Assembly: GCA_021787555.1 (NCBI GenBank)
Contig: JAJYLS010000008.1
Location: 1-39,496 of the forward strand
DNA length: 39,496 nucleotides
Source of the DNA: Acidobacteriota bacterium
Lineage (GTDB): Bacteria > Acidobacteriota > Terriglobia > Bryobacterales > Bryobacteraceae
Reading direction: 5' to 3'
The notes under the pieces were generated by a model. The model saw only the letters and a list, made by a program, of their open reading frames with translations, searched no databases and was not told the origin of the DNA. Positions 26,618-32,586 of this stretch are shown here, one piece after another; within the stretch, counting starts at the first letter, position 1; each line of letters opens with the position of its first letter. The position numbers and the translations under genes were made by a program.

Positions 26618-29473
26618 ATGCCTCAGAAAAAATACGCACTCCTCTTCCTTGGCGCGTGCGCCGCTGTCGTGTTAGCGCTCGCCGCCGCTCGCCCGCAGGT
26701 CCGCGCGGCGCGCGCCGCTGCCGCACCCCCGCCCGCGGATGATACCATCGCGTTCCGCGTCGTTTTCGGCTACCGGCGCGTCGCCGCCAAGCCCTACGAC
26801 GGCAGCGTCTCCGTCACCGGCGGCACCCTGCGCTCGCTGGAGCCCTGGCGCTTCACGCAAACCGACGCCATTCAGCCGCCCAATTCCTGGAAGCTCGAAA
26901 TCCACCGCCTGGTCTTCGAGAACCAACCCGATAATCCCACCTCCGTCGCCGCCAGCGGCATCCCGACGCGCAATCTTGTCCCCGCCGGCCTGTTCGTGAC
27001 CGTCGATAGCGGGGCCTCCTCCGCCAACTTCCAAACCGCGCAGGGCAATTTCTCCGTCCCCATCCGCGATCTCGCGTGGGGCCGCGTCCTCTGGTTTCTC
27101 GACGGCGACGTCCGGGTCGAGCGCATTCCCGGCCCGCAAAAGATCTCGCCGACGAACGCCGAGCAGCACGATTATCCTTCCATCGCCGTCACCCGCTCCG
27201 GCGATGTCTGGCTCGCCTGGCAGGCCTACCAGGACCGCGGCGATCACGTCTACGTCCAGCGGCGCGGCAGCGCGCCCACGCGCCTCACCACGGAAAAGGG
27301 CGACATTTACCGCACCTCCGTTGCCGAGGATCCCGACGGCCGCATTCACGTGGCTTGGTCCGAGCGCCACGGCACCGATTGGAACCTCTACGAACGCATC
27401 TTCGACGGCCGCAACTGGTCGCCGCGCGCGCAGATCACCCGCGGCAACGTGCCCAACATCTTTCATAAGTTCGCCGCCGGCCCGCGCGCCCTCAACCTGG
27501 TCTGGGTCGGATTTGAGAACGGCGAATCCTACCTCTACGCCGCTTCCTACACCCGCTCCAGCGGCTGGTCGCAGCCGCAGCGCGTCGGCGGTCCGAGCGT
27601 CTGGGCACCCGACGCCGCCTGCGACCGCGACGGCAACTTGCACGTCGCCTGGGACAGCTACATCAACGGCAACTACGATATCTATTACCGCCGTATCGCC
27701 GCCGATGGCACGCCCGCTGCCGTCGAGCAGATCACCAAATCGCCCGGCTTCAACGCCCATCCCTCGCTCGCGATCGATGGGCAGGGTCGCCCCTGGCTCG
27801 CGTGGGATATGTCAGGCGCCAATTGGGGCAAGGATTGGAACCACCAGGACCAGAACCGCTCCACCGTGCTTTACAAGGACCGCTCCATCAAGGCGATCGT
27901 GAAAGATGCCGGCGTCTGGAAGGACGCTCCCGATTTTTCCACCGCCGTCCCCGAGCGCATCGACCGCTACTGGGAGTTGCCCCATCTCGCCTCGGATTCC
28001 ACCGGCCGCATCTGGGCGCTCTTCCAGGTCCGCACCAGCGTTTCCGTCAACCGCATCGATTACTGGGCCTCGGGCGCGCTCTGGGACCTCTATCTCACCA
28101 CGCTCGATCACGGCGCCTGGCAGCCCGCGGCCTTCATTCCCCATTCGAGCGGCCGCAATGAAGTGCCGTTCCAGATCGCCGGCGGCGGGTCCTCCGCCCC
28201 CGGCATCTGGATGACCTGGGCCACCGACGGCCGCACGCTCAAGGTCGCCAACACCGGCAACTACCAGGCGCCCAGCATGGTCCATTACGACATCTATGCC
28301 GCCAGCGCGGCCGCTCCGCCGGCCTCCGGCACGACGCCGTTGACCGCCTTCACCGAGTTCCAAGGCCGCCCGCAGGTGATGCATCCCAACGAGCGTGAGG
28401 ATGTGCGCCGCATCCGCACCTACCGCGCCACCGCCGATGGCGCCGAACTCCGCATCCTGCGCGGCGATTTTCACCGCCATTCCGACATTTCCAACGACGG
28501 CGCCGGCGACGGCTCGCTCGAAGATTTCTACCGCTACATGATGGACGCCGCTTCCATGGACACCGGCATCATCACCGATCACAACGACGGAGGCGACGTC
28601 GAGTACAACTGGTGGCGCATCGAAAAATCGGAAGATCTCTTCCACATCCCCGGCGGCTACACCCCGTTATTCGGATACGAGCGCAGCGTGAATTATCCCA
28701 ACGGCCACCGCAACGTAGTCTTCGATCACCGCGGCGTCAAAACGCTCCCCGTGCTCCCCGGCGAGATGCGCGGCACGATCAACAGCGGCCCTCTGGTTTA
28801 CCCCTACCTCCGCCAGAACCGCGGTATTGCCATGGAGCACTCCCTCGCCACCGGCCAGGGCACCGACTGGCGCGACAACGATCCCGACCTCGAGCCCCTG
28901 GTCGAAATCTACCAGGGCTACCACGCCGCCTACGAATATGAGGGCGGACCGCGCGCCGAGAGCGACAACGACCACATCCTCATCCACGGCGGCTACGAGC
29001 CCAAAGGCTTCTTCTGGAACGCGCTCGAAAAAGGTTACAAGCTCGGCATGCAGGCCAGCTCCGACCACATCTCGACGCATTGCAGCTACACCCTGATCTG
29101 GTCGCCCTCGACCGACCGCGCGGCCATCGTCGAGAGCATGCGCCACCGCCACGCCTACGGCGCCACCGACAACATCGTCCTCGATTTTGAAGCCGTGGAC
29201 GGCAACACCACCCACATGATGGGCGACATCGTCACCGCCCCGCGCGGCCTGCGCCTGCACATTAAGGTGCTCGGCACGGATACCATTACGCACGTCGACC
29301 TGATCCGCAACAGCGCCATCGTTTACACGCTCTCGAACCCCGGCAAGAAGGACGTGGACTTCAACTACGTCGACTCCGCCCCGATTTCCGGCACCAACTG
29401 GTACTACGCCCGCGTCACCCAGATCGACAAGAACCTCGCCTGGAGCTCGCCGATTTGGGTGACGTACCGGTAG
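26618..29473 (+). CDS. exported BNR-like propeller protein with C-terminal PHP-like metallo-domain
   Basis: A 951-residue protein with an N-terminal signal or anchor (about 7-24, LLFLGACAAVVLALAAA). Residues about 170-560 contain repeated sialidase/BNR-like blades (YPSIAVTRSGDVWLAWQAY, DPDGRIHVAWSERHG, DRDGNLHVAWDSYINGNYDIYYR, HPSLAIDGQGRPWLAWD). From about 612 the sequence RGDFHRHSDISNDG (His619, His621) and IITDHNDGGD match the first metal motifs of PHP phosphoesterase-like domains; GIAMEHSL and MQASSDHISTHCSY provide more candidate ligands. PHP domains usually hydrolyse phosphoester bonds, but activity here is unproven. No Shine-Dalgarno; an AT-rich TATATATA lies 8-13 nt before the ATG. 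It is divergent from the amidohydrolase. Confidence 0.8.
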   Translation: MPQKKYALLFLGACAAVVLALAAARPQVRAARAAAAPPPADDTIAFRVVFGYRRVAAKPYDGSVSVTGGTLRSLEPWRFTQTDAIQPPNSWKLEIHRLVFENQPDNPTSVAASGIPTRNLVPAGLFVTVDSGASSANFQTAQGNFSVPIRDLAWGRVLWFLDGDVRVERIPGPQKISPTNAEQHDYPSIAVTRSGDVWLAWQAYQDRGDHVYVQRRGSAPTRLTTEKGDIYRTSVAEDPDGRIHVAWSERHGTDWNLYERIFDGRNWSPRAQITRGNVPNIFHKFAAGPRALNLVWVGFENGESYLYAASYTRSSGWSQPQRVGGPSVWAPDAACDRDGNLHVAWDSYINGNYDIYYRRIAADGTPAAVEQITKSPGFNAHPSLAIDGQGRPWLAWDMSGANWGKDWNHQDQNRSTVLYKDRSIKAIVKDAGVWKDAPDFSTAVPERIDRYWELPHLASDSTGRIWALFQVRTSVSVNRIDYWASGALWDLYLTTLDHGAWQPAAFIPHSSGRNEVPFQIAGGGSSAPGIWMTWATDGRTLKVANTGNYQAPSMVHYDIYAASAAAPPASGTTPLTAFTEFQGRPQVMHPNEREDVRRIRTYRATADGAELRILRGDFHRHSDISNDGAGDGSLEDFYRYMMDAASMDTGIITDHNDGGDVEYNWWRIEKSEDLFHIPGGYTPLFGYERSVNYPNGHRNVVFDHRGVKTLPVLPGEMRGTINSGPLVYPYLRQNRGIAMEHSLATGQGTDWRDNDPDLEPLVEIYQGYHAAYEYEGGPRAESDNDHILIHGGYEPKGFFWNALEKGYKLGMQASSDHISTHCSYTLIWSPSTDRAAIVESMRHRHAYGATDNIVLDFEAVDGNTTHMMGDIVTAPRGLRLHIKVLGTDTITHVDLIRNSAIVYTLSNPGKKDVDFNYVDSAPISGTNWYYARVTQIDKNLAWSSPIWVTYR

Positions 29474-29474
29474 C

Positions 29475-30786
29475 TCAGAACTCGTATCTCAGACGCGCGT
29501 CTACGCTGCGCGGCGGCGCGATCGCCGTTCTGCAAAGCTTCGGTCACCGGAGCGTAATGGGCATCGCCGCCGAACTTCAGATCGTGATGGTGTTTGGTGG
29601 CCGACAGGCTTGCTCGGAGATAGCTGCGCCGGAATCCGCGCTGCTGCGCGGCAATAATAGGAACCGATAAGTTGTTCGACCAGAGGTTCGCTGACAGGTC
29701 TTCGACCGCCGCGCGTACCTCAAACAGGAGGTCGGACGAAATCAGGTGATCCCAGCCGGCCTGCCCGAAGTCCTCGATCGAATTGCGGTTCTGAACCTGT
29801 CCGGCCGCCTGTTGCAGATTTTCATTGGGAACCTCGAACTGCGCCTGCTCGCGATGCACGGAAACGTGGATGCGGTCCGCCGCGGAAAAATCCTGATCGT
29901 AGATTGCCGTGGCGCCGTCGAGCGTCTCGCTATTGGTGAAATTGCCGAGGACCGGCGGGTCGAGGTAACGGCCGGTGGTGTTGGCAAAGGCGCTGAGCGT
30001 AAGTTGGCTTCGGTTCCATCCATAGGACCCGCTGAAAAAGCCGCCTCCGGTGTCGAAACTGCCCCCATCGGCCTCCGCGGCGCCATGAAATCCCTTGTGG
30101 ATGTCCTTATCCGTCGTCAACTCCACCACGCCGCCGAGCTTTCGTCCATACTCCGCGGGATAGTCCGCGGTCAGAACGCTCATGGATTGAACATCGTTGT
30201 GATTGAACTCCGGCGCAAACCCGGGGGAGCGGTTCTCATCCATGGGGATGCCGTCCACGACAAACAGCGTCTGGTATTCGGAGCCGCGCGGATGCAGGAC
30301 GCCGTTGGCTTCGAAGATCCAGCCCGGCTGCGGCGACTGTTCCTCGTGGATCAGTTGCGAGCCCGCCGAGTAGACCACCCCGGTGCGATGCGCATCGAGC
30401 AGCGTGGCTTTGTCGGAAACGTTCACCGCGGCTGAGACCGGCTGGATCGCCATTTTCACCGTCACTTCGCGTGAAATGGCCGATCGCACATCGACGAGCT
30501 CCGCGTACTTCTGAAAACCGCTGTGCTCGACGGTCAGACGGTAAACGCCGAAGGGAAGATGGGCGAAAGTGAAGCGGCCGTGGTCGTCGGTAGTGTAGGT
30601 TCTTTGCGTGTTAGAGGCTTCGCTCAAAACTCCAACGGTGGATGAGGGCAAAGGCAGACCGCTCGGGTCGGTGACCAAAACACGGATCTCACCCGTCTCC
30701 AGTTGGGTCCAAGCCGGCGAGCAGGCGGCAAGGCCAAGAGCGAACACGGCAATCCAATGGACACCATGTCTCTGAGTCCGATTCAC
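29475..30786 (-). pseudogene. truncated, frameshifted TonB-dependent receptor
   Basis: From a GTG at 30786 the frame gives a signal peptide (WIAVFALGLAACSPAWTQ), a carboxypeptidase-regulatory domain (VLVTDPSGLPLPSSTVGV, TTDDHGRFTFAHLPFGVYRL), a plug-like region (FVVDGIPMDENRSP, YPAEYGRKLGGVVELTTDK) and about 200 residues of barrel up to KFGGDAHYAPVTEALQ. After that the frame loses family character. In a second frame the 3' end reads IAPPRSVDARLRYEF then TGA at 29477-29475, a normal receptor terminus. So the 3' half of the barrel is missing and the true end is out of frame across about 29526-29535. At roughly 430 residues it is about half the usual length. A short functional receptor is unlikely. 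Confidence 0.75.
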
Positions 30787-30938
30787 AATGCCCCGTGGCT
30801 TCAATGGTCCAATTGTATATGCAACCCTCCACTCGCCACATCCCTTATTCCCTTGACGCCCCGGCATGATCTCGCGGCGGACTGGCTCTCCGCCTATAAG
30901 AAGTATTTCTACATGGACCGGCCGCGGCCGTCAGATCG

Positions 30939-31163
30939 CTACCGCCGGCCCGCGCGGCGTCCGAGTCCCGTTCCGCCGCCGGTTCCCGGCTGGTGGATCG
31001 GACCGCTGCCGTCCTGCGGCCCCAGTTTCTTGCCGTGGTGCTGCCCGGATTGCTGCCCTGCGCCGGAGTTAGGGCCAGGCGTTGTTTGCCTTCTGTTCTG
31101 TGCGAGCCCAGTGCCCGCCATCAGGGTGAAAATCGTTGCGATTGCCAGAATGCTTCTTTTCAT
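30939..31163 (-). CDS. small secreted Gly/Gln-rich protein (74 aa)
   Basis: The ATG at 31163 has a strong GGAAGGAG seven bases upstream and is followed by a textbook signal peptide (MKRSILAIATIFTLMAGTGLAQ). The mature part is about 52 residues, rich in Gly, Gln, Arg and His, with the phrase GKKLGPQDGSGPIHQPGTGG and a basic end (GRRAGRR). No domain is recognised; similar GPQDGSGPIH-type peptides are, as far as I recall, found in acidobacterial genomes. An upstream in-frame ATG (31193) would spoil the signal peptide. The gene stands between two broken genes, but its signals look intact. Confidence 0.75.
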   Translation of the reverse strand: MKRSILAIATIFTLMAGTGLAQNRRQTTPGPNSGAGQQSGQHHGKKLGPQDGSGPIHQPGTGGGTGLGRRAGRR

Positions 31164-31320: not shown

Positions 31321-32586
31321 TCAACCGGCTGTCGTTCTACCCTGCCACAACCGGCGGCTTTCCACCTTCGCCTCGTCCAGTTCGATCCCATATCCGGGAG
31401 CGTCCCGCAGCCGCAGGTGAGCCCTTTCCACTACCGGCGGATCTTTTTAGAAGTGATAGTAATTCTGCATTTTGAGGACCAGGTACTCCCCCAGCGGGCA
31501 CACCCCCGGCGACTCGCTCGCAATCACATGCTGCGCCGCGTGAATGCTGTGCCCGTGCGGAATCACCGGAACGTCGAAGATGGATGCCAGCGAGCAAATT
31601 CTCACCAGCTCGGTTGTACCGCCGCACCACTCCGGATCGCACTGCACCACGCTCAGCGCCCCTTCTTTCAGGTAGTCGTACACCTCCCATCGCCCCTGGA
31701 TGTGCTCGCCCGAAGCGATAGGGATCGAGGTGGACCTCCGAAGCTGCGCGAAGCTGCCGATCTTCTCCGCCTGGGTGGCTTCTTCGATCCATCTCGGCCG
31801 GTATTGCTCCACCTGTTTGGCCCACTCCAGCACATACGTCAGGTCCCACCCGCTGAACGCGTCGAACATCAGCTCCGTATCGTCGCCCAGCGTTTCACGC
31901 AGAATTCGCACCAGCTCCACGTTCTTCCGCATGCCCTCGGGGCCGTCGCCCGGTCCATAGGCCATAAACCACTTCTGATAGCGGTAGCCCTCTTTTTTGA
32001 TCGCCAGCGCCCGCACCCGCAGCTTTTCCGGCTCGAGCGAATATCCCAGGCAACTCGCGTAGACCTCCACGCTCGGCCGCGTGGGTCCGCCCAGCAGGCG
32101 GTACACGGGTGTTCCGAAGTGGCGCCCGCGCAAATCCCAGAGGGCGTTATCCACCGCGCTGATGGCCATCAGAAAATGGCCGCGCCGCGAGTGCCGGTTC
32201 GAGCGGTACATCTGGTCCCACAGCTTCTCGCCGGCCAGCGCGTCCTTCCCCAGCAGAAACGGGCGTAGTTGATTCTGCACCACGATAGCGGCTTCTCGAT
32301 CGATCGGCCCATAGAGGCCCTCCGCGCCGCCGGTCCGGATCTTGAGATAAAGCGCGGTCACCGGCAGACTTGCCGGCACACCTTCCGCTGCGTCGTGGTA
32401 CGGTTTGTGCCGCTGGTCGTCGTAAATGTTGAGCGGGTTCACTTGCGGCTGCGCGTTAATGCCGCGCACCTTCTCGACATGCCCGTGCAACTCCCAGATC
32501 TCCAGCGCCGCGATAGGAAGGGGCTTGGTCTGCGCAAATGCGGCGAGCGGCGCGGCGGCCAGAAGTTGGCGTCGGGTCAGTGGCAT
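31321..32586 (-). pseudogene. Tat-exported enolase-superfamily dehydratase (rhamnonate dehydratase-like) with in-frame TAA
   Basis: The ATG at 32586 has GGAG five bases upstream and starts a twin-arginine signal (MPLTRRQLLAAAPLAAFAQ). The enolase-superfamily barrel shows KWFMAYGPGDGPEGM, metal ligands in LMFDAF, WIEEAT and IASGEHIQ, and the acid/base segment VIPHGHSIHAA, closest by eye to L-rhamnonate/mandelate-racemase-group dehydratases. The frame stops at TAA (31449-31447) after MQNYYHF, giving 379 residues. Without a frame change it continues for 41 codons with KDPPVVERAHLRLRDAPGYG and IELDEAKVE, the conserved family C-terminus, to a TGA at 31321. One base change (for example from GAA or TTA) explains the stop. 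The truncated product could keep some activity. All residues before the TAA look intact. Confidence 0.8.

Follow-up and report, generated by a model that had tools for sequence, protein, structure and literature searches.

A probable recent nonsense mutation in a sugar-acid-dehydratase-like gene of an uncultured Acidobacteria genome

Results

The window, a stretch of 39,496 nucleotides from a Bryobacteraceae-related Acidobacteria genome assembled from metagenome, carries on its minus strand an enolase-superfamily gene (31447..32586) that begins with an ATG at 32586 and ends after 379 codons at a TAA in the same frame (codon 380, positions 31449-31447). Beyond this stop, 41 further codons remain open (31446..31324) before a TGA at 31323-31321, and this orphaned tail, which reads KDPPVVERAHLRLRDAPGYGIELDEAKVESRRLWQGRTTAG, is conserved through VES. 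The truncation removes the last tenth of the protein. An earlier, sequence-only reading had proposed that the TAA cuts a conserved C-terminus from the gene; the reading frame and the in-frame tails of relatives described below bear this out.

Both domains that define the MR subgroup of the enolase superfamily are present in the gene, with matches above the curated Pfam cut-offs for MR_MLE_N (PF02746, 49.2 bits, cut-off 22) and MR_MLE_C (PF13378, 140.1 bits, cut-off 29.4). The subgroup is also characterized by a C-terminal segment that completes the fold; the TAA removes this segment from the product, while the DNA after the stop still encodes it. The gene is thus a member of the MR subgroup by descent, and its encoded product is incomplete. 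Among solved structures it resembles the branch of the mandelate racemase subgroup comprising RhamD and putative galactonate dehydratases (PDB 3sqs, 3stp and 2oz3), with which it shares both domains, the fold (Z 45-46) and about 30% sequence identity. Unlike the members of that branch, the window copy is truncated and scores below every NCBIfam equivalog cut-off, including that for L-rhamnonate dehydratase (NF011968, 177.5 bits versus 393, with the truncated protein as query). The N-terminal TRRQLL had been taken for a Tat signal, a plausible reading in that the two arginines are kept in 28 of the 34 relatives aligned there; export as such is a prediction.

What do related genes carry at the position of the stop? 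We compared 104 loci, some of them duplicates of one gene. A public scan contributed 80 loci, mostly from Bryobacteraceae-type Acidobacteria, many of which are identical to genes from a family search of 237 genomes. All 104 have a sense codon at this site, mostly Glu: 99 encode Glu or Asp and 5 encode Gln, and the stop occurs in the window only (GAG 59, GAA 29, GAC 6, GAT 5, CAA 3, CAG 2, TAA 1 for relatives and window together). After removal of duplicates, relatives with at least 60% identity give Glu 48 and Asp 7, with the window as the single stop. None of these relatives ends at the same point, and a single base change, GAA to TAA, suffices to explain the stop. The tail is in frame in every relative whose contig extends far enough (e.g., EKNPPAVKDAHLALPEAPGFGIELDDAKVE); for the 16 relatives nearest by body, identity across 30 tail residues amounts to 50-77%. 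Residues after VES are not conserved. The tail closes with RRLWQGRTTAG where relatives read RELMKWG, which might reflect another frameshift, but as these residues vary in the family we claim nothing from it. A codon-usage scan for coding continuation past stops ranked long stretches of open frame highest and scored the tail as neutral (-0.4 bits); it was not used, and the case for the tail consequently builds on homology, not codon bias.

The nearest relative found in the family search is 78% identical over nearly its full length, and in a phylogenetic tree the window gene adjoins the Bryobacteraceae-type copies. Relatives at E ≤ 1e-80 are present in 90 of the 237 family genomes, indicating that the gene is dispensable within the group; the 237 genomes include no second member of the same genus. 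One relative, found twice in our set (L056, 5001-6146, equal to L030, 1498-2643; genome G026, a bog metagenome assembly), has a different internal stop, a TAG at alignment position 237 in mid-gene. Two further candidates for broken relatives were rejected: an apparent N-terminal truncation (L060/L032) coincides with a run of N, and in L129 a TAG precedes the homologous start, leaving that gene unbroken.

If the lesion is real, it is likely to be recent, since conservation of the tail matches what body divergence would lead one to expect and no invariant upstream column has been lost. At 75-80% body identity, the mean identity of relatives' tails to that of the window is 0.64, versus 0.62 (standard deviation 0.09) between relatives. 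In comparison with the nearest relatives, the body (dN 0.13-0.15, dS 0.96-1.10) shows purifying selection, and the tail has a dN of 0.22-0.25 and a dS of 0.78-1.30, while tail dN among the relatives themselves is 0.12-0.19. Upstream of the stop, every invariant family column is retained, including the presumed metal and acid–base residues, in agreement with the initial view that the catalytic residues are intact and the loss very recent. Given the long terminal branches, however, the stop can be called young only by comparison with the divergence from the closest relative known. A roughly twofold excess of amino-acid change on the window branch over that of L045, counted by hand, might point to relaxed constraint but was not used, as no conserved column is lost.

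To place the tail in the fold, we rely on a structure predicted for the read-through frame, with the TAA taken as Glu. The model has a mean pLDDT of 94 (about 95-98 for most tail residues), and solved relatives align to its residues 23..415, i.e., through the tail, with a Z score of 46 to 3sqs. The tail is thus predicted to sit inside the fold, as it does in the solved relatives. For a segment built into the fold in this way, loss would most likely deprive the 379-residue product of its stability or activity.

The large gene that follows on this strand (29475..30867, minus strand) encodes a TonB-receptor-like protein with CarboxypepD_reg and plug domains, and it is broken as well. Its homology to relatives, whose open frames mostly span 770-1,030 residues, ends at about 29530. 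The ancestral receptor C-terminus, TAIAPPRSVDARLRYEF with its stop, survives at 29528-29475 but is no longer in frame; directly beyond it, at 29473, a convergent gene ends. Some 330 codons between the end of homology and this remnant are gone through an internal deletion. A receptor gene beside the enolase-superfamily gene was not found in relatives, and we therefore claim no functional link between the two. Between the broken genes lies a small open frame (30939-31160, minus strand) with a signal-like start and a Gly/Gln-rich body. The 5.9 Mb genome contains 133 CarboxypepD_reg matches, many of them in frames of more than 1,000 residues, an expansion of TonB-receptor-like genes.

Discussion

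Our analyses revealed a stop codon unique to the window copy of the gene, a conserved reading frame beyond it, and a broken neighboring gene. We consider it probable that a recent, real nonsense mutation made a pseudogene of a sugar-acid-dehydratase-like enzyme, and we propose the following course of events. A Glu codon would have changed to TAA by point mutation, so that translation ends there and yields a product devoid of its fold-completing C-terminus. Before its loss, the enzyme was probably exported and sugar-acid-dehydratase-like. With a separate, larger lesion in the adjoining gene, this stretch of the genome seems to be in the process of losing genes. The model presumes that the base is real and the protein inactive, and that both lesions may stem from one episode of decay; nevertheless, the two need not be linked, and the broken neighbor could itself be a mis-assembly.

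The main rival to a nonsense pseudogene is an artefact of base or strain. An error in the consensus or the assembly of this metagenome-derived genome, or an allele carried by a minority strain, would look identical, with the living population retaining an intact gene. The assembly, in 516 contigs (5.9 Mb) of which the window is contig 85, is 92% complete and 3.7% contaminated, and neither tail nor body shows decay, as would be the case for an intact gene. Speaking against an error, about 200 domain matches in the genome (24 enolase-family, 47 ABC and 133 CarboxypepD_reg matches) contain one internal stop only, a TGA in a sub-threshold match, suggesting that the consensus is not generally poor. 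In addition, the large lesion of the adjoining gene is beyond the reach of a base error. Because that gene is broken too, by a large deletion, we favor true local decay and, among the options first raised for the TAA (point mutation, sequencing error or read-through), a real point mutation; an artefact strikes us as distinctly less probable, though deserving of serious weight.

Could the shortened protein be functional, its tail dispensable and lost neutrally or by selection? The retention of all invariant upstream columns, presumed metal and acid–base residues included, speaks for such a protein, but the tail is kept wherever a relative's contig reaches it, and both the model and the solved structures place it in the fold. 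We regard a functional short form as very improbable.

Under programmed read-through, orthologues would be expected to share the stop; with none of the relatives carrying one at this site, there is no conserved read-through signal. No stop anticodon was detected among 30 tRNA matches in the genome, an absence that is not proof in an assembly of this completeness, and no TAA lies inside the other domain matches named above. A reporter study that covered three bacteria measured little read-through (0.01% for UAG and 0.08% for UGA in one of them), with UGA in E. coli, at 12%, as the exception; the codons studied were UAG and UGA, not UAA (PMC9481147). Despite the frame and tail conserved past the stop, it is thus highly unlikely that programmed or leaky read-through yields a full-length enzyme beside the short one, and we give equally little credence to useful levels of read-through in this species producing two C-terminal forms.

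What is the relevance of the proposed nonsense mutation? As in other recent bacterial nonsense pseudogenes, one base change would have produced a stop while the remainder of the gene is still orthologue-like; compared to these, the window case adds nothing beyond the lost gene. It looks like ordinary recent gene loss, not a new mechanism, and bears on no open question. It serves as a reminder that automatic annotation would label the short form a normal gene, and it offers a clean case of a loss seen at an early stage, in an enzyme that is patchily distributed among uncultured Acidobacteria.
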